Source: a virus
Virus record (IMG/VR): IMGVR_UViG_3300017750_000110
Coordinates: 1-24,664 of that record
Strand: one strand, 5' to 3'
Length of the DNA stretch: 24,664 bases
Shown here: piece by piece, positions 3,729 through 15,384 of the stretch
Numbering within the stretch: position 1 is the first letter of the stretch
Layout: each line of letters begins with the position of its first letter
Notes under the pieces: generated by a model
The model's database searches: none
What the model was told of the DNA's origin: nothing
Seen by the model: only the letters and a program-made list of their open reading frames with translations
Translations under genes and position numbers: made by a program

Positions 3729-4448
3729 ATGCCATTACCAAAGATTGCGACACCATATTATGATCTTGAACTACCCTCTTCTGGGGACAGCATTGAATAT
3801 AGACCTTTCCTTGTAAAAGAAGAAAAACTTCTAGTCTTGGCTATGGAGAGTCAAGATCAAAAACAGATTACCAAAGCAATCAAAGAAGTTATTAGGTCAT
3901 GTATTCGCGGAGATATTAAAGTAGAATCTCTGCCTACATTTGATATTGAATACCTCTTTCTTAACATTCGTGGTAAGTCTGTTGGTGAAGAGATTGAACT
4001 CAAAATTATTGCACCAGACGATGGTGTGACAGAGATTGATGTTACCATTAACATCGACGATATCAAAGTCATTAAAGATGACGACCATAATAGAGATGTA
4101 GATCTTGGTGGTGGACTCGCATTGAGATTAAAATATCCTTCCCTCGAAGAGTTTATTACAGACAACTTTGACTTTGATGAGAATTCTTCTAATGTTGAGA
4201 AAACATTTGATCTGATTGGTTCTTGTATTGAAACCATTTACAATGAAGAGGAGGCATGGCCTGCTGCTGATTGTAGCAAGAAAGAGATCAAAGAATTTGT
4301 TGATCAACTGAATACCAAACAGTTTCAGGACATTGAGAAGTTTTTCTCTACCATGCCTAAGTTATCACACACTGTTAAGGTAAAGAATCCTAAGACTAAG
4401 AAGTCTAGTGAAGTTTTATTGGAGGGATTATCTAGTTTTTTCGCGTAG
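3729..4448 (+). CDS. 26: Baseplate hub assembly protein gp26
   Basis: This 239-aa protein matches the T4 gp26 family (208 aa in T4), required for hub formation. It opens with MPLPKIATPYYDLELPSSG, then a segment typical of the family (IEYRPFLVKEEKLLVLAMES, residues about 22-41). An acidic beta-rich middle (about 90-135) and a helical C-terminal half follow, with FDLIGSCIETIYNEEEAWPA at about 160-180. It is followed after 11 bases by gp51, reproducing the T4 order 26-51-27. No strong Shine-Dalgarno sequence precedes the ATG; a CTAAATA late-promoter-like element lies just upstream. Confidence 0.85.
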   Translation: MPLPKIATPYYDLELPSSGDSIEYRPFLVKEEKLLVLAMESQDQKQITKAIKEVIRSCIRGDIKVESLPTFDIEYLFLNIRGKSVGEEIELKIIAPDDGVTEIDVTINIDDIKVIKDDDHNRDVDLGGGLALRLKYPSLEEFITDNFDFDENSSNVEKTFDLIGSCIETIYNEEEAWPAADCSKKEIKEFVDQLNTKQFQDIEKFFSTMPKLSHTVKVKNPKTKKSSEVLLEGLSSFFA

Positions 4449-4459
4449 CCCTTTCCCAC

Positions 4460-4630
4460 ATGAATTTGGAGGCATATTTTAGAATCAATTTTGCCCTCAT
4501 GCAGCATCATAAATATAGCTTGACAGAGATTGAAAATATGATGCCCTGGGAACGGGATGTATACGTTGAACTTTTAAAACAGCATGTTGAAGAACAAAAG
4601 TTAGAGCAAGAGAAACAACGTAATGCTTAG
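4460..4630 (+). CDS. 51: Baseplate hub assembly catalyst gp51 (56 aa)
   Basis: A 56-codon frame starts MNLEAYFRINFALMQHHKYS and continues LTEIENMMPWERDVYVELL before a Lys/Glu/Gln-rich tail. The MMPWERDVYV core, with a helix and Lys/Glu-rich end, is typical of the short phage hub or tail-assembly chaperones of this position (T4 gp51 and similar small proteins). Its location exactly between gp26 and the hub/tape-measure genes supports gp51, which acts catalytically in hub assembly in T4. The stop (4628-4630) overlaps the ATG of the next gene by eight bases in another frame, indicating coupling. It is short enough to be missed by common ORF length cut-offs. A CATAAATA octamer lies inside it. Confidence 0.78.
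   Translation: MNLEAYFRINFALMQHHKYSLTEIENMMPWERDVYVELLKQHVEEQKLEQEKQRNA
4508..4515 (+). promoter_or_regulatory. Possible internal late promoter CATAAATA
   Basis: CATAAATA matches seven of eight bases of the T4 late consensus and lies 107 bases before the ATG of the 686-aa gene, inside gp51. Chance occurrence in AT-rich DNA is a real alternative. Confidence 0.25.
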
Positions 4631-6683
4631 TCTACCACCATCAGGAGGAACTGGTAATAAGATTGTCCCCGCCAAACTATTTGGCGAGGATAGATATGAC
4701 AAAATTTACCAGGAACTCGTCTCTGACGGTAGGATAGAAGGTGAGAACCTGACACCAGATGAAAGAAAGGAAGGTGTAAAAGCATACAGAAGAAGTAAGA
4801 TAGATTTTGAGAAGTTTGTAAATAGAGTTAATACAATTAAAGCAGAAGTTTCTGCGTCAAAACCAGCAACACCACTCACTCCAAAATTAGCATTAGCACC
4901 TGCTGCTCCACCTGCTCCTGAGGCACCACCATCTCCCGATGTGGTTGAGGATGAAGACATTGATGGAATAGATCAGAAATTGGATGATCTTCTCGATGAG
5001 ATTCGCACTCAAACTGAGATTGAAGAGAAGCAAGGGGAGAGAGAACGAAAGGACAAGGAAAAAGAAAAGAGAAGTAAGAAAGAAAATAAACTTGAATCGG
5101 CAAAGAAATTCTTACTGAAACCAATTACAAAGGCATTGGCACCTGTCAATAATCTTTTCAATAAGATTCTTAGTGGACTGTTCAAGATCCTTGCTGCAAA
5201 AGCACTGATTAAACTGATTGACTGGTTTACAGATCCAGAAAACAAAGAGAAGATCGATTCAATCGGTAGGTTTATTAAGGATTTCTGGCCTGCTATTGTT
5301 GCTGGATTTCTCTTATTTGGAACGGGTCTTGGTGGTTTAGCGAAACTTCTTATTGGAACTGGTGCTAGACTAATTGGATCACTATTAAAACTTGCTATCG
5401 GTCTAGGAAAAATTACTGCAAAACTAGCAGCGAAAGCAGCAAAGGGTGCTCTTAGACTTGGTAAAGGTGCTCTTGGTTTAGTGAAAGCTAATCCATTAGC
5501 AGCGACTGCTATTCTTGGAACTGTCGCAGCTGGTGCTGCGCTTTATGGTGCAGGAAAAATGTTAGGAAAGGATAAGGTAGTAGAAACTGAAACTCAAAGA
5601 CAAGATGCTACTCGTAAGGGATTGAATGCAGCACCTAGCACTAAGGATTTGAGTGCTGGTGATACAGAAGCAATGGTCCAGGGCACTAGATTAAGAGATG
5701 CAGGTGGACCTGGATCATTAAATGATATGCCAAATATGTTTACCAACCCACTTGGAATTAGTGGTGGTGGCATGGCACAAGGAACTGATGTTGTTCCTGC
5801 TATGTTGACACCGGGTGAATTTATTATGAGTAAAGGTGCAGTGCAGAAGTATGGAACTGATACTCTTGAATCAATGAACGCTGCTGGCGGTGGCACAAAC
5901 AAACCTAAGCAGTTGGGTGGCACAACATACGCTGCTGGTGGTGGTAAGATAGATGTAAAGGGAACTGGAAACTCTGTCGAAGGAACGTTGAAAATGACAG
6001 ATGCCAGTGGTAAGCAAGTCGGTAAGACTTATGGTGTCATTAGTGGCACCTATGCTGGCATGAACATACCACAGAATGCCAGATCTACCACCCCACAAGC
6101 TCCTATTCCTGATGGTAGTTATAAATTAGTTGGATTTGAGAAGCATGGTCCTTATCCTGGACTGGCTGGTATTGGTGATTGGAGTACATATATTGCAAAC
6201 GGTAGTGGATCTATTGGTAGTCGTAGTGGATTAATGTTGCATAGTGATATTGGAAGTAACGGAACTCTTGGTTGTATTGGTGTTGAACTTGGTGGTAAGG
6301 CAGGAACAAAGGCAGAACAGGAGTTCTTAAAAACATACGAAGCAATCAATCCACAGTCTATTAAGATTGCATTAGGTGGGGGTGGTGGTGATGCTTCTGA
6401 GATTGCATCTGTTGATAGAACTGCATCAGCTGATAACTCATCTAAGTTAGCAGCACTACAACCAGCACAATCAGGATCTCCTAGGGTATCCCCTGGTGCT
6501 ATCACTCCCCCATCCACAGGGGGTGGTAAAGTAGCACCAGGATCTCAGAGTATCGTTCCCATTCCTACTGGTGGTGGTGCTAAGAAAGGTGCCAGATCAG
6601 ATGTACCAACTCTTGGTAGCGTTGATCCATTGAACATTGCTCATCTTGTGATGCGATCGATGTATAATCTGGGTAGTGCATGA
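4623..6683 (+). CDS. Tape-measure/hub-like virion protein with L,D-transpeptidase-like domain
   Basis: This 686-aa modular protein starts with a helical N-terminus and a Pro/Ala linker (about 78-105). A very charged coil follows (about 112-158, rich in Glu, Lys and Arg), then an amphipathic block with ALAPVNNLFNKILSGLFKIL (171-190), and long hydrophobic Gly/Ala/Leu-rich segments (about 224-316) like membrane-active parts of tape measures. Residues 387-424 carry the tape-measure-associated motif GTDVVPAMLTPGEFIMSKGA and MNAAGGGTN. Around 497-560 is a YkuD-like pattern: IPDGSYKLVG, then LMLHSDIGSNGTLGCIGV with H540 and C551 as likely catalytic residues. The end is Gly/Pro-rich with SIVPIP. I infer a structural role at the hub or tail interior and peptidoglycan cleavage or binding at entry. 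It occupies the place of T4 28/29 and is paralogous to the next gene. Confidence 0.65.
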   Translation: MLSLPPSGGTGNKIVPAKLFGEDRYDKIYQELVSDGRIEGENLTPDERKEGVKAYRRSKIDFEKFVNRVNTIKAEVSASKPATPLTPKLALAPAAPPAPEAPPSPDVVEDEDIDGIDQKLDDLLDEIRTQTEIEEKQGERERKDKEKEKRSKKENKLESAKKFLLKPITKALAPVNNLFNKILSGLFKILAAKALIKLIDWFTDPENKEKIDSIGRFIKDFWPAIVAGFLLFGTGLGGLAKLLIGTGARLIGSLLKLAIGLGKITAKLAAKAAKGALRLGKGALGLVKANPLAATAILGTVAAGAALYGAGKMLGKDKVVETETQRQDATRKGLNAAPSTKDLSAGDTEAMVQGTRLRDAGGPGSLNDMPNMFTNPLGISGGGMAQGTDVVPAMLTPGEFIMSKGAVQKYGTDTLESMNAAGGGTNKPKQLGGTTYAAGGGKIDVKGTGNSVEGTLKMTDASGKQVGKTYGVISGTYAGMNIPQNARSTTPQAPIPDGSYKLVGFEKHGPYPGLAGIGDWSTYIANGSGSIGSRSGLMLHSDIGSNGTLGCIGVELGGKAGTKAEQEFLKTYEAINPQSIKIALGGGGGDASEIASVDRTASADNSSKLAALQPAQSGSPRVSPGAITPPSTGGGKVAPGSQSIVPIPTGGGAKKGARSDVPTLGSVDPLNIAHLVMRSMYNLGSA

Positions 6684-9031
6684 TGCTAGCACTCATAGGG
6701 AACGTAGCAAGAGGTGCAAGCACAGTTAGATCAGCAACTAAGATGCTGCCAAAGGGGAAGAAAGGTGGTGCTTTGGTTTCATCTCAACGTCCTGGTCTTA
6801 GTCAATTTTATGATCAGGCACGACAAAAGAAGGCAGCTGCTGCACCCACATTAGATAGAAGTAGTTTTTTCTCTGCGCCAAAGATTGGTGATGCGAAGAA
6901 AGGATCAACAAATGTAGAGAGTGCTGAGAATAAAATTAGTTTAATAACTAACTTCATTAGAAAGGGGAATCAGAAGAGGAGAGAATCTTTTAAATCATAT
7001 CTAAACACAAAACAAGACGAAAAGAGAAAGGAAAAGGAAGAAAAGAAAGAAAACTTTGCCAAAGGATTGGTAAAAGGAGTTGCATCAAGAGCACTCGCAC
7101 CAGTTAAGAGTATCTTTGATAGGATTCTCGATGCTGTTGGTAAGATTATTATTGCCAAAATTGGCATGTGGGCAATTGATAATCCAGAAGCCTTCGCAGC
7201 AATCATTAAGGGAATTGCTGCCACGATGGAAGTTATTACAGATATCTTTATTGGAACTGTTGATTTTCTTGCAACACTTGTCAATGAAGGATATAAACTG
7301 GTTGATGGATTTGATGATTGGAAGGACACGAATCTAGGTGAGGATGTATCTGCCACGTTAGATAATATTGGGTCTAAGTTTGTAGACTTCCTGAATGCAT
7401 CTTTGATTGTTGGTGGATTGTTGATGACTCTGGGCAACCAAGAGTTAGGAAAGAAGGATGATGTTGATACTAATACACCTGGAAATGCAAAGGTAAACCC
7501 AAAAGTAAAAGCAGATAAAAGAACTAGAACGAGAAGAGCAAGTCAAGAGGCACGAAAGAGATTTGCTAGAAGGTATGGTGGTGACGCTGCTAGGAGGAGA
7601 TTTGCTGGTCAAACCAGAGGACCTATAAAGAGTTCTATTACTCGTCGTGGTCTCGGAAGATCTGTCACACGTCTGGGTATCAAAATGAACCCTGGCATGG
7701 TGAAGAGCATGAAGTCTATCTCTAAGTTGGCAAAGGGTATTAAGATTCCTATTATTGGACCATTGATCATGGGTGTCACCTCCTACCTGGGTGATGGTAA
7801 TCTTGGTAGAGCAGTGTTCATTGCTTTGGGAACTGGTCTTGGTGAGTTACTGGGAACTGCTATTCCAATTCCTATTGTTGGAACACTACTTGGCAGTATA
7901 CTTGGTGCTTTTGTTGGTGATTTGCTTTACGATTTAATCATTAAGAGAGACCCTGGCGCAGCATTAGAAAAGGTAAAGGCTGCTGGTAAGAAAATATTTG
8001 AGACAGGTAAGGCAGTCTTTGAATGGTTAAAGGGTGGATTTGGTAGGTTCATCGAGAGTTTCAAGGAGAAGAATCAAATTGGTGTTGGGTTTGCTAAGAC
8101 TACTAACTGGCTTGCTCTCTTAAATCCACTAATCACACTCCCTCTGTTAAAGGATGGATTCTTCCCACCCAATCCTAACGCACCATCACCTGATCTCAGT
8201 AAGTTTAAAGATGGAGCATCTGCGACTGCTGTTGATGGCGTCACTGGTGGAGCAGTTTCTGCAACTGTTGGTGGTAGTGAGATGGATTTGTTCAAACGAC
8301 TTGTTCTTGCAGAATCAGGTGGTGAAGGTGAACTGGGTATGGCATTAGTAGCACGTAGTGTGATGAATCGTGCCGGACTTATTCAATCTGGTAAGGTTGG
8401 TCCTGGAATGTTCATGGCAAATGATAAGAGCATAACTGGCGTCATCATGGGTAAAGGTCAGTATCAACCAGTTTCTGATGGATCAATTAATACTGAGAGA
8501 AGTGATGCACAAATGGCAAAGGCAGCTGCCGCTATTAAACTTGCTAAGAATGTTGATCAATTAAAAGCAAAACTTAAAGCTGCTGGCATGTCTACTGATG
8601 AGATTAATAAACTTGTAGCATCCACTGGTTTTAGAACCGGTTCTGCATTCAATGATCCATCTCAGAACGTTAACGTTGTTAAGTTTAAGAATCATTTCTT
8701 TAACACTGCTGGCAATGCTGGACTTACAGCAACCAGTGCTAGGATAAGTACAGAAGATAATGCACAACAGGCACAGATTCCTACCAACCCAACACCATCA
8801 TCTCCATCAGCTGCTGCTGTCTCGACTCTGAGCAGAGGAAGTGGTGGTAGTGGTGCAGGAGGACCTTCTGGTGGTGGAAAGGCACAGGTAGGCGATCAGG
8901 CAATCGTCCCCATACCCATACCATCTCAGCAGGGAGCACCCTCTGGTGGTACTTCCAGTGCCGGTGGATCTACTTCGTTAAATAGTCTTTATATGGCTCA
9001 ACTGTTTGGGTTCTTATATAAACAAGGATAA
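6680..9031 (+). CDS. Tape-measure/hub-like virion protein with SleB-type cell-wall hydrolase domain
   Basis: This 783-aa protein has the same plan as its upstream neighbour. It has a Lys/Arg/Glu coil (about 99-126), a matching amphipathic block (RALAPVKSIFDRILDAVGKI, 137-156), an Arg-rich stretch (about 280-333), hydrophobic Gly/Ile/Leu segments (about 352-421) and an SQ/GGG-rich end with AIVPIPIP. Residues about 531-680 resemble SleB/Hydrolase_2 cell-wall hydrolases: FKRLVLAESGGEGELGMALV with E545 as candidate catalytic Glu, then ARSVMNRAG, and further on NVNVVKFKNHFF. These enzymes cut peptidoglycan glycan strands. The ATG overlaps the previous stop (ATGA), and a second ATG follows at once. 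Length and hydrophobic segments make it a tape-measure candidate, but the length ruler could be either paralogue. Confidence 0.67.
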   Translation: MMLALIGNVARGASTVRSATKMLPKGKKGGALVSSQRPGLSQFYDQARQKKAAAAPTLDRSSFFSAPKIGDAKKGSTNVESAENKISLITNFIRKGNQKRRESFKSYLNTKQDEKRKEKEEKKENFAKGLVKGVASRALAPVKSIFDRILDAVGKIIIAKIGMWAIDNPEAFAAIIKGIAATMEVITDIFIGTVDFLATLVNEGYKLVDGFDDWKDTNLGEDVSATLDNIGSKFVDFLNASLIVGGLLMTLGNQELGKKDDVDTNTPGNAKVNPKVKADKRTRTRRASQEARKRFARRYGGDAARRRFAGQTRGPIKSSITRRGLGRSVTRLGIKMNPGMVKSMKSISKLAKGIKIPIIGPLIMGVTSYLGDGNLGRAVFIALGTGLGELLGTAIPIPIVGTLLGSILGAFVGDLLYDLIIKRDPGAALEKVKAAGKKIFETGKAVFEWLKGGFGRFIESFKEKNQIGVGFAKTTNWLALLNPLITLPLLKDGFFPPNPNAPSPDLSKFKDGASATAVDGVTGGAVSATVGGSEMDLFKRLVLAESGGEGELGMALVARSVMNRAGLIQSGKVGPGMFMANDKSITGVIMGKGQYQPVSDGSINTERSDAQMAKAAAAIKLAKNVDQLKAKLKAAGMSTDEINKLVASTGFRTGSAFNDPSQNVNVVKFKNHFFNTAGNAGLTATSARISTEDNAQQAQIPTNPTPSSPSAAAVSTLSRGSGGSGAGGPSGGGKAQVGDQAIVPIPIPSQQGAPSGGTSSAGGSTSLNSLYMAQLFGFLYKQG

Positions 9032-10320
9032 TGGCAGACGAACAGGCAAACATAAAATCATTTGTCATCCAAGCAGCAAAGGATGAGGGGAGAGGTGTAG
9101 ATGTAAAGAATGGTCTGACATCATTCTCATTCTATGAAAATATTTTGTCTAATAATATTACTGCTCAGGTAAAAGTATTTGATAGTGGCAATAGTATAAA
9201 AGATGATAGTGGAAAACTTGTCAGCATTATAGAAGGATTGCCTATTCGTGGTGGTGAAGAGATAAGATTTGATATTGAGGATGAAAGTAAGAACAAGTTA
9301 AAGTATGAGTTATACCTGAATAAGATGATGAATCTTGATCAGTCTACGACTCAGGATAATTTTGAGATCCATTGTGTATCGAAGGAATGCTATTCAAATG
9401 AGATGACGAGAGTCACAAAGAGATATGAGGGAAAGATCTCTGAAAGTGTGACAACGATTCTTAAAGAACGTTTGAAAGCAGAATTTAAACCAGAGAATAT
9501 TGAGGAGACATCTAATACTTACAATTTCATTGGCAATGATCGTAAACCATTTTATGTTTGTACATGGTTAGGAACAAAGAGTGTTCCAACAGAGAACTAT
9601 GGAAAGACTGGTGGATACTTCTTCTATCAAACTCAGGATGGAATGAATTTTAAATCCGTTGATAATCTTCTGGGTCAAGACGCCAAGAAAAAGTATGTTT
9701 ATAATGAATCTGATACATTGCCAAACGGGTATGATAGGAAGATTTTAAATTATGATTTGAAACGTTCAGTTGATTTGCAGTCTAACTTAATGTTAGGTGC
9801 ATATAAAAATAGAACTCTTTATTGGGATCCATATCAATTTAAATATGAAGTCAAAACTTTTGATATCACAGAACAGAAAGATGTCAAACATGCTGGATCG
9901 TCTGATGATTTTGACTTTGTTAATCCAGTTTTTACGGAAACGCCCACACGACTGATGACATCCATCCTAGATGTTGGTACAATGCCTAGTGGTAAGGATG
10001 CAAAGGAACAACTGAAAAGATTCATCGATAAAACAGATGAATCTAACGATAAGGTTATGGATCGCATGGTTCAGTCCGTCATGCGCTATAATCAATTGTA
10101 CTCTGTTGTTACATCTATAACTATACCAGGAGATTTCAGCTTACGAGCTGGTGATATGATCCAATGTGATTTCCCCAGAGTTTCTGAGGAAACCAAGGAT
10201 GTTGATAAAAAACTGAGTGGTAAATACTTAATAGCAAGTTTATGCCACTTTGTATCTCCAAAGGAGTGTTACACACAACTAGGACTGATCAGAGACTCAT
10301 ACGGGAGGAAAACAAGTTAA
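9031..10320 (+). CDS. 27: Baseplate hub protein gp27
   Basis: This 429-aa protein (391 in T4) is assigned to the gp27/gpD hub family, a trimer that adapts the hexameric tube to the trimeric spike. N-terminal segments FVIQAAKDEG and FSFYENILSNNITAQVKVFD are the first tube-like strands. IEGLPIRGGEEIRFDIEDE and FEIHCVSKECYSNEMTRVT fit the repeated tube domains. The C-terminal YSVVTSITIPGDFSLRAGDM followed by SGKYLIASLCHFVSPKECYT is a typical hub ending. It follows the two tape-measure-like proteins and precedes gp5, as in T4-like hubs. The ATG overlaps the upstream stop (TAATG) with AAGGA just before it, so it is coupled. Confidence 0.8.
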   Translation: MADEQANIKSFVIQAAKDEGRGVDVKNGLTSFSFYENILSNNITAQVKVFDSGNSIKDDSGKLVSIIEGLPIRGGEEIRFDIEDESKNKLKYELYLNKMMNLDQSTTQDNFEIHCVSKECYSNEMTRVTKRYEGKISESVTTILKERLKAEFKPENIEETSNTYNFIGNDRKPFYVCTWLGTKSVPTENYGKTGGYFFYQTQDGMNFKSVDNLLGQDAKKKYVYNESDTLPNGYDRKILNYDLKRSVDLQSNLMLGAYKNRTLYWDPYQFKYEVKTFDITEQKDVKHAGSSDDFDFVNPVFTETPTRLMTSILDVGTMPSGKDAKEQLKRFIDKTDESNDKVMDRMVQSVMRYNQLYSVVTSITIPGDFSLRAGDMIQCDFPRVSEETKDVDKKLSGKYLIASLCHFVSPKECYTQLGLIRDSYGRKTS

Positions 10321-10547
10321 TGGAAAACATCGAAGCACACTTAAAGAAAGATCAGGAAATTCTTGCTGATCCAACTACAAATCCACAGATGCGTCGTCAC
10401 ATTGAGGGCGAATTGCATGAGTTGGAGGTCTATATAGAGAATCATAAGAAAGATATTGAAGCAGGAGATCATCATGATCCCACAGCACTTGAACTTTTTT
10501 GTGAGGTTGAACCAGACGCAGATGAATGTAGAATCTATGACGACTGA
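10320..10547 (+). CDS. Conserved 75-aa cyanophage protein between gp27 and gp5
   Basis: This is a 75-aa, mainly helical, acidic protein. It has an N-terminal helix with DQEILADPTTNPQMRRHIEG, then ELHELEVYIENHKKD, a His/Asp patch (GDHHDPTALELFC) and the ending CEVEPDADECRIYDD with two cysteines. The start at 10320 is chosen because TAATG links it to the gp27 stop and GGGAGG lies 11-17 bases upstream; an in-frame earlier ATG would sit deep inside gp27. It ends TGATG into gp5. I recall this short protein at the same spot in other cyanomyoviruses. Its position suggests a chaperone or adaptor for gp27-gp5 assembly, which is inference. Confidence 0.8.
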   Translation: MENIEAHLKKDQEILADPTTNPQMRRHIEGELHELEVYIENHKKDIEAGDHHDPTALELFCEVEPDADECRIYDD

Positions 10548-13396
10548 TGCTTGAACAAGGACTCTTAAAAAAGAATTTTGTAGGAAGAGACGGGTTCTTC
10601 TGGTGGCTTGGACAGGTAGTTGATTCCAAAAAATGGAAAGACAACTCACCTGGATTCCCATCCAAAGATCTTCCTGGCATGAAACGCCGGGTAAAGGTTC
10701 GCATTATGGGATACCATACTGCACAAGTAGAAGAACTTACGGATGATGATCTACCATGGGCATACTGTATGATGCCTGTCACTGCTGGTGGAAACCAGGG
10801 TGGCATGTCTCAGAGTGTGAACTTCTCTGGTGGTGAATGGGTCTTTGGTTTCTTCCTTGACGGTGAAGATGGACAACAACCTGTTGTCATGGGAGTCCTT
10901 GATAAGTCAAGTCAAACTACATTTCCCAAAGAGATACCTGACGTTGGGTTTACACCGTTCAGTGGATTTACCAATGGATTAGTAGAATCTCAACATAATA
11001 TTAAAGAAGACGGAGCTCCATCTGAATCTGATCCGTCACAACCATCTGTTCCTGTAAAGAGTGCCGGAGTAAAGGTCAAGCCAACTCTTGCTACTGAGGG
11101 TGCTCAGTTAGAATCTGTGCGTCAGGACATTCCTGATCATGGAACGAAAGCAGCACATGAAAATGCAAAGAACACTGGCGAAGTAAAACCAGCACAAGCA
11201 TGTGCTGATGATAATCCACAAGCAGGAATCAAACTTGCATTGACACGCCTTCAAAAACAGATGGCGTTTCTTGAAGAACAGCAAAGCATCTTCCTTGATC
11301 CACTGTCACAGAAGATAGGTGACATTCAGGGTGAGATAGAAAGAGCGAACCAGAACGTCAATGCATACGTCAAAGACATCATGGACAAAGTTCGTGCTGT
11401 CGCTCTTACAGAAACTGCCAAGGAGATGGCAAAGATATCAATCAATTTACCGATTGATGCCATGGGAGAATTCAAGGATAAACTTGACGAGACACTGGAA
11501 GGTCTAGGATGTTTGTTTGAAAATATTATCGGCGGACTCAACGATACTTTGAATAGTCTGTTGGATGATGTTAAGGATAAAATCACTGGTGTTCTTGATT
11601 GTATTGTCAACGATGTTATTGGTGGTGTACTAGACGCTGCTTTGGGAGCAGTCAACAGTGTTATGAACTCTCTCACTGGTATTCTGGATAGTATTGGTGG
11701 TGTTGATGGATTCGGTGGTTTGCTTGGTGCCATTCAAATTCCTCTGATTGCAGCAGTAGATTTTATCTCTTCACTCAAACAACTCTTCTCCTGTCAAGAG
11801 GAGACTGAGTGTGCTGACATTGCTCAGGCAAACATGCTCAGCGGTAATGCATCAGAAGAACCTGGTGATTTCTTAGGTCTCATCAGTTCTGCCATGGGTG
11901 GTGGTGGATTAATTCCAGAACCTGTTGGCGGACTTCTTGATGCCGCAGAAGGTATTCGTGATTCAGTCACTGGTATTACCGATGCATTTGGTAATGTTGT
12001 TAATAACGTAGAATCAGCAATCGATACTGTTGGTAATACCATGCAAACGGTTGCTGGTATTCCTGGACAAGCACTTGAAGGACTCAAAGAATGTAATCCA
12101 TTTGCAGATGAATGTACACCACCACTTGCGGTAATTTTTGGTGGCGGAACAACAGCAGCAACTGCTAATGCTATTATTAATCAATCGGGAAGAATTCTTG
12201 GCGTTGATTTAAATGGTAGTGAAGTATTAGATCGTGTTTATAATTCTGTACCATCTATTAATATTAAGAGTAACTGTGGTCAAGGTGGTGGTGCCAGTGG
12301 CAAAGTTAGATTAAATTCTGATGGATCTATCGATAAAGTGGTTGTTGTTAAGTCAGGAGTTAACTTCCCACCCGCTCCTGATGGATCTGTCGGTGGAAAC
12401 GGTGGAACGTTTTGTCCTGGCGATTTTTGTATCGTTAGAACCAGTGATGGAGCAAGCACAAAACTGAAACCAGGTAGTGATTGTACTATCCCACCCGATT
12501 GTCTGGTTTATATTCCTAAGGGTGCTAGTCTCGTCTTGCCTGATGGATCAACAGATGAAAATGGAGACGATGCTAGCGGACTACAACCGGGCAAAGGATT
12601 GACTGTTCCCAATGGATTCTATGTTCCAGAAGAATATTCTTTCAGGGCACCGACACCAGAATTTGACGATGAAGAATTGTCAGAAGAACTTGTATATCCA
12701 GTAATTATGGAACTAGATGAGATTGATGTAACTAAGACTGGCGTTTCTTTCAATGCAGGAGATACAATTACCGTCAGTGGTGATGGAAATGAATTGACAT
12801 ATACCCCACTTCTTTCTGTGAACGGATCAATTATTGGTGTTGAGATTCCAGATGAAGATAGAGGTCAAGGATTTACTTCTATTCCTGATGTCACTATAAA
12901 TACATCTACCGGTGCCGGTGCTCAACTGACACCAATTCTTCGTGTTAAGTATAGGGGAAGAGATAGCATTAATGATGTTATTGAATCTGTTAGACAGGAT
13001 CAAATTATTTCAGTTGTCAATTGTGTTGGTGCAAAACCAGTAGGATATGTGAACGGAAAACCATACTATGGTCCTTTCCACGTACATAATGGTAGAAAAA
13101 TGGTGGGAGCAGAACATACTTCTACTCCTCATGGATTTATCGAAGACACTCCTCAAATTTCCCAAAGTTCGACGCGGAGAGTAAGAGTACCAAGATATAC
13201 ATCGTCTGGCGTTGGTGGCGGCGGAGCCCCAATAGGAGATACAGGACTTTCAAGAGCAGCATCTTCTTCTTCCCCATCAACACCTAGCCCATCACCTACC
13301 CCGGCACCATCACCCACACCTACACCCACACCTAGTCCATCCCCCTCACCATCACCAGGTGGTGGAGGATCTGGCGGAGGATATGGAGGATATTAA
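10547..13396 (+). CDS. 5: Baseplate hub/spike protein gp5, large form without visible lysozyme domain
   Basis: This 949-aa protein begins with a gp5-type OB fold (about 12-125): FFWWLGQVVDSKKWKDN, MKRRVKVRIMGYH, LPWAYCMMPVT and GGEWVFGFFLDGEDGQQPVV. After a linker there is a coiled region (about 225-290), then a helical, Gly/Leu-rich stretch (about 310-510), then beta-rich parts with repeated Gly-Ser turns. Near 838-862 is a His-rich segment (PYYGPFHVHNGRKMVGAEH, then TSTPH). The end is a Ser/Pro/Thr tract (about 905-935) and a Gly-rich tail. In T4, gp5 is OB fold, lysozyme and beta-helix (575 aa). I see no lysozyme signature such as the Glu...Asp...Thr active-site context, and the beta-helix seems to be encoded by the next gene. 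OB-fold identity is firm; the roles of the added regions are unknown. Confidence 0.78.
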   Translation: MLEQGLLKKNFVGRDGFFWWLGQVVDSKKWKDNSPGFPSKDLPGMKRRVKVRIMGYHTAQVEELTDDDLPWAYCMMPVTAGGNQGGMSQSVNFSGGEWVFGFFLDGEDGQQPVVMGVLDKSSQTTFPKEIPDVGFTPFSGFTNGLVESQHNIKEDGAPSESDPSQPSVPVKSAGVKVKPTLATEGAQLESVRQDIPDHGTKAAHENAKNTGEVKPAQACADDNPQAGIKLALTRLQKQMAFLEEQQSIFLDPLSQKIGDIQGEIERANQNVNAYVKDIMDKVRAVALTETAKEMAKISINLPIDAMGEFKDKLDETLEGLGCLFENIIGGLNDTLNSLLDDVKDKITGVLDCIVNDVIGGVLDAALGAVNSVMNSLTGILDSIGGVDGFGGLLGAIQIPLIAAVDFISSLKQLFSCQEETECADIAQANMLSGNASEEPGDFLGLISSAMGGGGLIPEPVGGLLDAAEGIRDSVTGITDAFGNVVNNVESAIDTVGNTMQTVAGIPGQALEGLKECNPFADECTPPLAVIFGGGTTAATANAIINQSGRILGVDLNGSEVLDRVYNSVPSINIKSNCGQGGGASGKVRLNSDGSIDKVVVVKSGVNFPPAPDGSVGGNGGTFCPGDFCIVRTSDGASTKLKPGSDCTIPPDCLVYIPKGASLVLPDGSTDENGDDASGLQPGKGLTVPNGFYVPEEYSFRAPTPEFDDEELSEELVYPVIMELDEIDVTKTGVSFNAGDTITVSGDGNELTYTPLLSVNGSIIGVEIPDEDRGQGFTSIPDVTINTSTGAGAQLTPILRVKYRGRDSINDVIESVRQDQIISVVNCVGAKPVGYVNGKPYYGPFHVHNGRKMVGAEHTSTPHGFIEDTPQISQSSTRRVRVPRYTSSGVGGGGAPIGDTGLSRAASSSSPSTPSPSPTPAPSPTPTPTPSPSPSPSPGGGGSGGGYGGY
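12895..12902 (+). promoter_or_regulatory. Perfect T4-late octamer TATAAATA inside gp5
   Basis: TATAAATA matches all eight bases of the T4 late consensus, in sense orientation, about 500 bases before the spike gene at 13399. It could give a separate late transcript for the spike and the two fibre-domain genes; a coincidental match inside codons (Thr-Ile-Asn-Thr) is possible. Confidence 0.35.
13267..13395 (+). repeat. Low-complexity Ser/Pro/Thr and Gly tract at the gp5 3' end
   Basis: Short CCA/CCC/ACC-rich units alternate to encode SPSP, TPTP and PSPSPSP runs, followed by GGA/GGT units for GGGGSGGGYGGY. Such DNA is prone to slippage, so length variation among relatives is expected. Confidence 0.7.
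13385..13390 (+). promoter_or_regulatory. Shine-Dalgarno GGAGGA for the spike gene
   Basis: GGAGGA sits 8 bases before the ATG at 13399 within the Gly codons of gp5, so the end of gp5 supplies the ribosome-binding site of the spike gene. Confidence 0.6.
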
Positions 13397-13398
13397 TA

Positions 13399-13980
13399 AT
13401 GTCAGAACCATCTAATCACTTTACAAGTTGGATTGAAAATAATTATGGACAAATTGAATTTGGACGTTTAGATCCTGATGAGACTCGTGCTGCTGTCTAT
13501 CTTGGAAACAAACAAGATGTAAGGCATAGATTTTACATGGATATTGATCGTGACATGGGTGGTGGAACTCACAGTGTCACTACACTTGAATCTCCTGGTG
13601 GAATTGTGATAAAGTGTGGACAGGATCGTAAAAGACCTGATGTTACGTTTAATATTCAAGTAGAGAATGGAAAACTAGCACTCACCTGTCAAACTGGTGA
13701 TGTTCTAGTGCAAGGAAAGAACGTTGTTATTGAGGCAAAGGGAGATTCTGGTAATGATGGGGTTATTACTTTGAAGAGTAATTCAAAAATTGACATGCAA
13801 TCTCCAAAGATTGAGATCAATGGTAAGCAAAAGGTTGGATGTTATAGTGAACAAAAGATTGATATTCAATCACAAGGAACTTTGCAGATGTATGGAGCAC
13901 AAGCATCCTGTCAGTCTGCATCATCTAGGTATGGACAACGTGGCACGTCACAAGAAGCACCAATTACGCCGGAGGATTAA
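13399..13980 (+). CDS. Beta-helical spike/needle protein (gp5 C-terminal or gpV/VgrG-like)
   Basis: This 193-aa protein has an N-terminal globular part (GQIEFGRLDPDETRAAVYLG, about 15-34, then RFYMDIDRDMGGGTHSVTTL). A regular strand-turn-strand repeat follows from about residue 65: GGIVIKC, VTFNIQVENGKLALTC, GDVLVQGKNVVIEAKG, GVITLKSNSKIDMQSPKIEI and QKIDIQSQGTLQMYG. Period and hydrophobic/polar alternation match the trimeric beta-helix of gp5, gpV and VgrG spikes. It starts two bases after the gp5 stop with a good Shine-Dalgarno sequence, so I infer it is the membrane-piercing needle that T4 carries as the C-terminus of gp5, or that sits on it. The end is Ser/Gln-rich and probably disordered. 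Confidence 0.65.
   Translation: MSEPSNHFTSWIENNYGQIEFGRLDPDETRAAVYLGNKQDVRHRFYMDIDRDMGGGTHSVTTLESPGGIVIKCGQDRKRPDVTFNIQVENGKLALTCQTGDVLVQGKNVVIEAKGDSGNDGVITLKSNSKIDMQSPKIEINGKQKVGCYSEQKIDIQSQGTLQMYGAQASCQSASSRYGQRGTSQEAPITPED
13971..13975 (+). promoter_or_regulatory. Shine-Dalgarno GGAGG for the 233-aa gene
   Basis: GGAGG lies 7 bases before the ATG at 13983 and overlaps the last codons of the spike gene, fixing the start at MAWTSDD. Confidence 0.55.
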
Positions 13981-13982
13981 TT

Positions 13983-14684
13983 ATGGCATGGACTAGTGAT
14001 GACCAACAGGTACATAAACAATGTGTCATTGGAGGGAAGACCTCTTCATCTGTTGGTAAATCTGATGACGAAAAGATTTTAGGTTCCGCATACGTTGAGA
14101 ACGGTATGCATGTGGGATCACCTGATGCCTTTGGGTTGATGGAAGGCACATGTATGGTCAATAAAAGTGCTGAACAACAGGGTGAATTTGCCATGGAGGT
14201 TCAGGATGACCAGCACATTCGTGACAACCTCTGGGTAGAGCAAGAGACTAAGACCAAAACTCTTGTTGCTGATAAGATTGATGTAAGAAAAGCATTTATT
14301 ACAACGATCAACAAAGGTTCTTGTAACTTTGTGATCGATCATCTTAGGATTCCTGGTTATAAACTTCGTTATACCTGCATGGAGGGTCCTACCAAGGATG
14401 TCTTTGTGCGTGGTAGACTAAGAAATGGTGATACTATTACACTTCCAGAAGAATGGGAGTGGTTGGTGCATCAAGATACAATCACAGTAAATCTGACTCC
14501 TATTGGAGCTCCTCAGATCTTATTTGTGAAGGGGCAGCAGGGAACAACAATCAAAGTTGGATCACACTCTGCTCTTCCAATTAACTGCTACTATACAGTC
14601 TACGGTGAGAGAGCAGATACTCCTAGGGAACCTAACGTTTTCCCTGCCGAAGATCTTTTAACTGATAAATTTGTAGGACAATAG
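13983..14684 (+). CDS. Virion protein with fibre-associated EGP-RGR domain, copy 1
   Basis: This 233-aa protein has an N-terminal half that is polar and partly beta-rich (MHVGSPDAFGLMEGTCMVNK, about 42-61, and a coiled QETKTKTLVADKIDVRKAF). Residues about 116-210 form a compact domain shared with the next gene: IPGYKLRYTCMEGPTKDVFV, RGRLRNGDTITLPEEWEWLV, DTITVNLTPIGAPQILFV and a CYYTVYGERAD end. I recall this domain in structural and fibre-associated proteins of cyanophages, often near Peptidase_S74-like fibre ends, but I cannot name a Pfam family. A role in baseplate-fibre attachment or spike decoration fits its place after the spike gene; this is inference. Confidence 0.65.
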   Translation: MAWTSDDQQVHKQCVIGGKTSSSVGKSDDEKILGSAYVENGMHVGSPDAFGLMEGTCMVNKSAEQQGEFAMEVQDDQHIRDNLWVEQETKTKTLVADKIDVRKAFITTINKGSCNFVIDHLRIPGYKLRYTCMEGPTKDVFVRGRLRNGDTITLPEEWEWLVHQDTITVNLTPIGAPQILFVKGQQGTTIKVGSHSALPINCYYTVYGERADTPREPNVFPAEDLLTDKFVGQ

Positions 14685-14694: not shown

Positions 14695-15384
14695 ATGCCA
14701 CATGGAGGATGTCAGGGACTATACGGAGATCCCGAAGCAGGTTGCGGTGGAGGTTCATGGCAACAGAACAGCACATTTGGTGCTGCTGACGATAAAGAGG
14801 AAGATTGTTGTAATCCAATCTCTGCTCACTTAAAAAATGGTTTGTTTGAGGTAAATTTGGAGGTTGAAGGTGTTACTACATGTCCCACATTCATTGGAAA
14901 TTTGACTGGAAATGCCACCTCAGCAAAAAGTATTGGAGGTGCATTTGATATTCCTAATCTGAAAAGACCAGGTTGGAGGGTTCGTCATGTCATTCCCGAA
15001 GGTCCAGAAGCTGGTATCTATGTGAGAGGAAGAATCAAAGGACATAATAAAATCTATCTTCCTGAATATTGGCAGGGTCTTGTTGACACAGAGTCAATTA
15101 CTGTAACGTTAACTCAAATTGGATCATCTCAGGATCTTATTATCGAGAGTATTGATTGGGGTAGAGTCGTTAATCTCAAATCTGGAAATGGTTGTGAAAT
15201 CGATTGTTTTTATGAAGCATGGGCAGCAAGACACCTTGATCCACTAAATCCAGATGAAAAACTGCACGTTGAATATGAGGGTAAATCTCCTGATGATTAT
15301 CCCGGTGACAAGAGCAGGTTCTTGGTCGGTGGATGGGACTATGACAGACGAGATCCTGTCACAGGGGAGCGTGTGCAATCCTGA
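14695..15384 (+). CDS. Virion protein with fibre-associated EGP-RGR domain, copy 2
   Basis: This 229-aa protein has a Cys/Gly-rich N-terminus (C6, C17, C38, C39) and a fibre-type phrase TFIGNLTGNATSAKSIGGAF (about 65-84). The domain shared with its upstream neighbour covers about 85-180: KRPGWRVRHVIPEGPEAGIY, VRGRIKGHNKIYLPEYWQGL, VDTESITVTLTQIGSSQDLI and CFYEAWAARH. The C-terminus is acidic with PGDKSRFLVGGWDYDRRD. Tandem position and domain sharing point to duplication, while the N-terminal parts are unrelated. GNATSA-type segments are common in phage tail fibres, so it may be a short fibre or fibre-attachment part. It is the last gene before the small-gene cassette. Confidence 0.65.
   Translation: MPHGGCQGLYGDPEAGCGGGSWQQNSTFGAADDKEEDCCNPISAHLKNGLFEVNLEVEGVTTCPTFIGNLTGNATSAKSIGGAFDIPNLKRPGWRVRHVIPEGPEAGIYVRGRIKGHNKIYLPEYWQGLVDTESITVTLTQIGSSQDLIIESIDWGRVVNLKSGNGCEIDCFYEAWAARHLDPLNPDEKLHVEYEGKSPDDYPGDKSRFLVGGWDYDRRDPVTGERVQS

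Follow-up and report, generated by a model that had tools for sequence, protein, structure and literature searches.

In phage T4, gp5 is made as one chain comprising an OB fold, a lysozyme and a needle, and in the mature particle the needle is already a separate chain, released by cleavage at Ser351/Ala352 (PMC3004832). In mycobacteriophage TM4, a working wall enzyme resides in the tape measure protein and aids DNA entry (PMC1796659). The gp5 proteins of cyanophages are often labeled "baseplate hub and tail lysozyme"; among phage records, 507 match the gp5 analyzed here, most of them from cyanophages. Our search of the open-access literature (the subscription papers on Syn9 and S-PM2 lying outside its scope) found no paper stating that cyanophage gp5 is lysozyme-free. 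Here we examine a cyanophage hub operon that, in our assessment, probably encodes a puncturing device of Kyanoviridae type, divided over more genes than that of T4 and with wall enzymes that would be borne in the tail tube.

The window, meaning the whole stretch of DNA that was analyzed, is a 24,664-base virus record carrying a T4-like cyanophage hub operon, whose genes from gp26 to that of a 193-aa protein are tightly packed and all on the + strand. gp26 (3729-4448, +) precedes two long proteins: X (686 aa; 4623..6683, +), putatively tape-measure-like with a C-terminal wall-active cassette, and Y (783 aa; 6680..9031, +), of the same build, whose C-terminal region holds a cassette of its own and whose C-terminal peptide, FLYKQG, is conserved. 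These are followed by a gp27-type hub protein (429 aa; 9031..10320, +), assigned by its match to phrog_350 (E 3e-97) and by gene order; a CP12 gene (10320-10547, +; Pfam CP12, E 4e-11); a gp5-type hub protein of 949 aa without a recognizable lysozyme (10547..13396, +; Pfam Gp5_OB, and phrog_1922 with E 2e-94); and, after a gap of two bases, the gene for a predicted separate central spike of 193 aa and of the VgrG or T4 gp5C type (13399..13980, +), so designated from its family profile, model and conserved position. The last two ORFs, both on the + strand, lie where the initial annotation had placed them. CP12 is a Calvin-cycle regulator, and its gene occupies the gp27/gp5 interval of the hub operon in several relatives as well; the proximity of cp12 to gp5 was remarked on by Sullivan et al. 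2010 (PMC3037559). Two adjacent paralogues lie 3' of the spike gene, at 13983-14684 and 14695-15384 (phrog_17490 / phrog_28536).

The order gp26-gp51-X-Y-gp27-(CP12)-gp5-small gene is common to P-TIM68, P-SSM2, S-SSM7, P-HM2, S-CAM9 and S-PM2; DSL-LC03 has the same order without an annotated gp51, and S-SCSM1, SynMITS9220M01, B23 and S-SM2 share it within the part of the locus examined. X and Y fall between gp51 and gp27 in nearly all relatives with sufficient flank, and the window (gp26, X, Y, gp27, CP12, gp5, spike) fits this Kyanoviridae arrangement. Of 72 related contigs, counting complete gp5 genes that have a downstream ORF, 70 have a spike-family gene directly after gp5. In the two exceptions a short gp5 is succeeded by a very long ORF, as in S-SM2, whose spike lies one gene further downstream. 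Loci of this S-SM2 type (L016:2756-8910, L063 and L073) have gp5s of 520-615 aa and a very long extra structural gene ahead of the spike, which is another way of splitting the distal part of gp5. The proximity of the gp5 and spike genes, two bases apart, could suggest that a single gene was broken by an assembly error or a frameshift; however, the split recurs in named isolates as well as in the 70 contigs, and each spike gene has its own start codon, so that this explanation is already refuted by the relatives and its probability is negligible. Judged from genome comparison, the split, lysozyme-free layout is standard for Kyanoviridae and not peculiar to the window's phage.

Pfam places Gp5_OB at gp5 residues 61-136 (E 5e-6, above cut-off). 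In an AlphaFold2 model drawing on 70 relatives and of moderate confidence (mean pLDDT 64), residues 15-143 (10589..10975, +) form an OB fold that aligns with T4 gp5 residues 6-124 (1k28_A; Z 11.7, rmsd 2.9, 110 residues). A disordered linker (144-218) leads to a long-helix region at the place of the T4 lysozyme (219-413; 11201..11785, +; pLDDT ~50-84), its longest helices measuring 41 and 43 residues and its sole structural matches being generic helical bundles. Residues 412-519 are helical with low model confidence; beyond them lie beta modules (525-802; 12119..12952, +), of which that at 723-800 is similar in structure to a domain from gp18, the T4 sheath protein (3foa_C; Z 7.9, with 24% identity across 75 aligned residues), a second beta stretch (833-876), and a disordered Pro/Ser/Gly-rich tail (877-949; 13175..13393, +). 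The succession initially read from the sequence, an OB fold followed by helical and beta regions, is recovered by the model, and its OB fold by Pfam. Across 70 gp5 proteins Cys 352 is invariant, and Cys 322, 416, 516, 523 and 826 nearly so (window 11510-13024); these conserved cysteines may possibly form disulfides or a metal site. Residues 833-949 (window 13043-13393) contain the motif YYGPFHVHNGRKMVGAEH, followed by Pro/Ser-rich sequence and GGYGGY. A similar C-terminal tail occurs in S-SSM7 and S-SCSM1, and in the closest relatives (L007, L008, L009 and L011) gp5 ends at about residue 830, without the window's later C-terminal part.

No lysozyme family was detected by Pfam in the window gp5, which besides Gp5_OB gave weak coiled-coil matches, and neither Gp5_C nor Gp5_trimer_C was detected by Pfam in this or the other cyanophage gp5s. 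The scan comprised 56 gp5 proteins, 55 from cyanophages and that of T4, deliberately added as a control. The Pfam lysozyme family (PF00959) occurred in none of the 55, nor did any other wall-enzyme family of the set checked; the T4 control was positive, and the sole protein among the 56 with Phage_lysozyme, Gp5_C and Gp5_trimer_C has E-values equal to those of this control. A profile of four lysozymes, that of T4 included, aligned with the gp5 family at 0.1% probability over 5 columns (hhalign), compared with 100% for T4 gp5 as positive control. The surroundings of the T4 cleavage site, at the boundary of lysozyme and needle, are nonexistent in the window gp5, and phmmer of the single protein against the PDB gave no meaningful match. 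Weak matches to Baculo_PEP_C, hemagglutinin HA2 and Sarcoglycan were taken as coiled-coil or beta-repeat look-alikes and set aside.

It might still be argued that the helical or beta regions of gp5 conceal an unrecognized domain with wall-degrading activity, since residues 412-519 are modeled with low confidence, long models can miss single-domain matches, and CHAP or VanY occurs in the gp5 of other T4-like phages. Weighing against such a domain are the 0/55 count for Pfam wall enzymes in the set checked and the negative lysozyme profile comparison with its positive T4 control; in addition, the most conserved gp5 residues are glycines, cysteines and the OB core, and a lysozyme fold does not accommodate helices of more than 40 residues, as modeled in the helical region. 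No lysozyme fold is among the matches listed for the gp5 model, although absence from this list alone proves nothing. A concealed enzyme is accordingly very improbable, and we conclude from sequence profiles and modeling that gp5 is an OB-fold hub protein with no predicted lysozyme, as the initial annotation had proposed. The "tail lysozyme" label misleads, because none of the 55 cyanophage gp5s tested carries a lysozyme, and it affects work on the entry of ocean cyanophages into Synechococcus and Prochlorococcus.

The 193-aa protein taken alone matches DUF2345 with E 0.007, under the curated Pfam cut-off, and the domain is found in 24 of 50 members of the spike family at E <= 0.1. Searched against the PDB, the family profile retrieves VgrG (1e-5), a T4 gp5C construct (8e-4) and an Anabaena eCIS spike (0.002), with more VgrG and the PVC, AFP and AlgoCIS spikes ranking lower; phmmer with the single protein found no meaningful match there. 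An HMM from the window's closest group recognized 48 of 55 independent downstream genes initially and 53 once iterated, and none of 360 shuffled sequences. The AlphaFold2 model, a single chain, has a small beta domain (1-66) followed by the predicted needle (67-170; 13597..13908, +), where pLDDT is 82-93 and intrachain strands are absent; a confident segment devoid of hydrogen-bonded strands within the chain is the expected appearance of one chain of an intertwined, triple-stranded trimeric beta-helix. Aligned with residues 457-606 of the VgrG needle 8gra_G, the model scores a middling Z of 8.0 (rmsd 3.6, 148 residues), and structural ranks 2-8 are all contractile-tail spikes. Foldseek E-values are weak (best 0.27), its top three matches being contractile-system spikes. 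A hydropathy test for period 8 was negative for this protein, T4 gp5C being positive for periods 2 and 8, and for that reason we claim no octapeptide regularity.

Whether this protein sits as a needle on gp5 or is a beta-helical part of the baseplate or of a fiber is a separate question. The model represents the monomer alone, its comparison with T4 gp5C (Z 3.7) is weaker than that with VgrG, and direct hhalign of the spike family with T4 gp5 gives 21% probability over 28 columns, all of which would suit a fiber or baseplate part. Yet the gene adjoins gp5 in all but two of the 72 contigs, the best solved-structure profile matches are central spikes, with VgrG and T4 gp5C among them, and no second needle candidate was seen in the operon; moreover, the equivalents in P-HM2 and S-PM2 are annotated as gp5 or base plate lysozyme, that of P-HM2 matching Gp5_trimer_C in Pfam (E 0.002). 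We therefore hold a role elsewhere in the baseplate or fiber to be quite unlikely, and regard the protein, on its profile and model, as the predicted central spike of VgrG/T4 gp5C type. The expectation that the gene after gp5 encodes a beta-helical spike has thus held, and of the outcomes named beforehand as contrary to the initial annotation neither appeared: no lysozyme fold was found in gp5, and the 193-aa model is of needle type. PAAR-type tip genes near the spike exceeded the curated cut-off only in the tested cluster C cyanophages (L105:13078-13401, L106:13105-13395, L107:12057-12350 and L104:19281-19625); no confident PAAR was detected in the other Kyanoviridae tested, most of which have a short spike.

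Two wall-active domains had been claimed upstream. That in Y, a SleB-type cell wall hydrolase (Hydrolase_2) at residues 548-622 (8321..8545, +), is clear, with a Pfam E-value of 9.2e-6 and 26.7 bits against a cut-off of 27. That in X, a Tlde1 or L,D-transpeptidase-like domain at residues 471-554 (6033..6284, +), is weak (Tlde1_dom, E 0.067), and is accompanied at residue 540 by a motif of the HSD...GCIG type, HSDIGSNGTLGCIG, present also in X of P-TIM68. Neither domain gave a meaningful phmmer match in the PDB. The predicted catalytic residues are a Glu in the SleB-type domain and the Cys of the GCI motif in X. Both proteins have considerable length, some helical content and hydrophobic segments; residues 364-422 of X match the tape measure family phrog_37649 (E 1e-4), and X carries at residue 395 an LTPGE motif that is rare among relatives (6 of 60 X, no Y). 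These features hint weakly at a tape-measure identity for X and Y.

Alignment with close relatives locates the variable part of both proteins. Relative L008, whose gp5 is 76% identical to that of the window, has a Y mostly 50-80% identical to residue 540, 20-33% identical over 541-720, and 100% identical in its last residues; X of L011 is 40-66% identical before the cassette, ~20% within it and 57% beyond it. M23 is found in X of L009; in L011, X has Amidase_2 and Y matches a DPBB lytic transglycosylase. As far as these alignments indicate, close relatives swap only the wall-enzyme segment of X and Y, the C-terminal cassette; plausibly, this exchange is a host-adaptation trait.

A Pfam census of wall enzymes covered X from 60 relatives and Y from 61. 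M23 was present in 6 X and 18 Y, Hydrolase_2 in 3 and 7, Phage_lysozyme2 in 2 and 4, VanY in 1 and 3, GH19 in 2 and 1, and Phage_lysozyme in 1 and 2, respectively; Amidase_2 (two proteins) and Glucosaminidase (one) occurred in X only, and SLT types were also represented in the X/Y set. At least ten wall-active families are thus distributed across X and Y, and a Pfam-detectable wall enzyme is missing in about two-thirds of X and one-third of Y. The T4-type lysozyme family (PF00959), which in T4 belongs to gp5, is borne by Y in three phages, S-CREM2, S-N03 and S-H34, and by the sole protein of this type, an X, in S-CRM01; in the whole records of these four phages no T4-type lysozyme was found in gp5. 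In S-PM2 the enzymes are Phage_lysozyme2 for X (E 7e-25) and M23 for Y. The X of this phage (L113:693-4193) bears in addition an N-terminal ADP-ribosyltransferase-like domain at residues 66-218 (ART, E 1e-5), so that the activities it delivers may go beyond wall cleavage.

Homologues of X and Y have been detected in purified virions of S-CREM2 (ORF208 and ORF209, with 73 and 71 unique peptides; PMC10665884) and of S-SCSM1 (ORF213 and ORF214; PMC9602691), whose authors considered these ORFs non-structural and possibly packaged or carried-over enzymes (PMC10665884, PMC9602691). By that account X and Y would be endolysins, packaged in the capsid or carried over and acting at lysis, or internal head proteins, and no tail enzyme would be needed; it agrees with the sparseness of tape-measure marks in X and Y and with the contractile phage phiCD508, which enters without a detectable hydrolase (PMC11948020). 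It accords less well with the confinement of X and Y to a tight hub operon, in the gp51-gp27 interval of nearly all relatives with enough flank, with their length, partly helical character and hydrophobic segments, with the high peptide counts in S-CREM2, or with the separate PF00959 lysozymes that stand alone elsewhere in S-PM2, DSL-LC03 and S-CRM01. We consider it unlikely that X and Y are such endolysins or head proteins. Because of their gene position, length and tape-measure marks, a site in the tail tube appears more likely for the virion-borne X and Y than packaging or carry-over. In S-CREM2, with a tail of 418 nm, X and Y have 1565 and 1456 aa (L104:4484-13555); S-N03, with a tail of 138 nm, has proteins of 933 and 722 aa, and the tail of S-H34 measures 129 nm. 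The S-CREM2 proteins are thus ~1.7-2 times as long as those of S-N03 and S-H34, which is not proportional to tail length, and we do not retain a simple relation between the summed length of X and Y and that of the tail.

In the mechanism we propose, a gp27 trimer would carry a gp5 trimer through its OB folds. The gp5 OB trimer would be capped by the separate spike trimer, which would pierce the outer membrane on sheath contraction. X and Y would lie inside the tail tube in the manner of tape measures, with their C-termini by the hub; once the spike had come off, both would pass out of the tube and open the peptidoglycan with their enzyme domains, and the hydrophobic helices of X and Y, perhaps with those of gp5, may aid in reaching the inner membrane. 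If tube proteins X and Y bear the wall enzymes, the hub lysozyme of T4 would thus have been replaced by an exchangeable cassette. Comparison singles out the X and Y cassettes as the real candidates for entry enzymes. Cassette swapping, the T4-type lysozyme in X or Y, and the two virion proteomes lend weight to the suggestion in the initial annotation that four proteins may share the entry functions. A bolder version, in which each tail of marine T4-like cyanophages holds two tape-measure-type proteins whose swappable enzymes are shot through the tube, wall opening has thereby moved from the hub to the contents of the tube, and the conserved cysteine-containing helical region of gp5 is a new membrane-reaching part, is conceivable but somewhat less likely to be right than wrong.

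Comparison with described systems indicates how far this device departs from each. It shares with the gp27-gp5 device of T4 an OB-fold hub protein adjoining gp27 and, by prediction, a trimeric beta-helical needle; it differs in that gp5 has long helical and beta modules in place of the lysozyme, the needle has its own gene and is nearer to VgrG than to gp5C, and the predicted wall enzymes are on X and Y. The initial contrast with a one-chain T4 gp5 stands as regards the genes, which are split here, and not as regards the mature T4 needle, itself a separate chain; since proteolysis frees the needle in T4, the cyanophage genes specify directly a division that T4 achieves by cleavage, and giving the needle a gene of its own is less of a departure than the earlier wording implied. 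The gp5s of Stenotrophomonas phage Moby, Xanthomonas phage X1 and Vibrio phage D479 likewise have an OB fold and no lysozyme domain, but keep the beta-helix (Gp5_C / Gp5_trimer_C) on the same chain; gp5-type OB proteins of IC12 (L109:1517-2431) and Melnitz (L110:6986-10029) have CHAP and VanY, respectively, in the lysozyme's stead. Across T4-like phages, therefore, the enzyme slot of gp5 can hold different domains, or none, as in the Moby type. By their domain content, Moby-like phages exemplify an absent enzyme without fission, to which cyanophages add genetic separation of the needle, and the locus provides a concrete case of a multi-domain puncturing protein dismantled during evolution. VgrG and eCIS spikes (DUF2345) resemble the predicted needle in sequence profile and fold, but in VgrG the gp27-like, OB and needle domains form one chain, where here they occupy three genes. 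Tape measures with wall enzymes, in TM4 and in phages of other Gram-positives, share the placement of a wall domain on a long, putative tube protein; TM4, however, is a siphovirus and has a single tape measure, whereas the present tail is contractile and T4-like, usually with two such proteins. The Anabaena myophage A-1(L) (PMC10966104) is also a cyanophage with its wall enzymes off the central spike, but it is not T4-like, bears the enzymes on its hub protein gp15, and combines OB fold and beta-strand needle in one chain.
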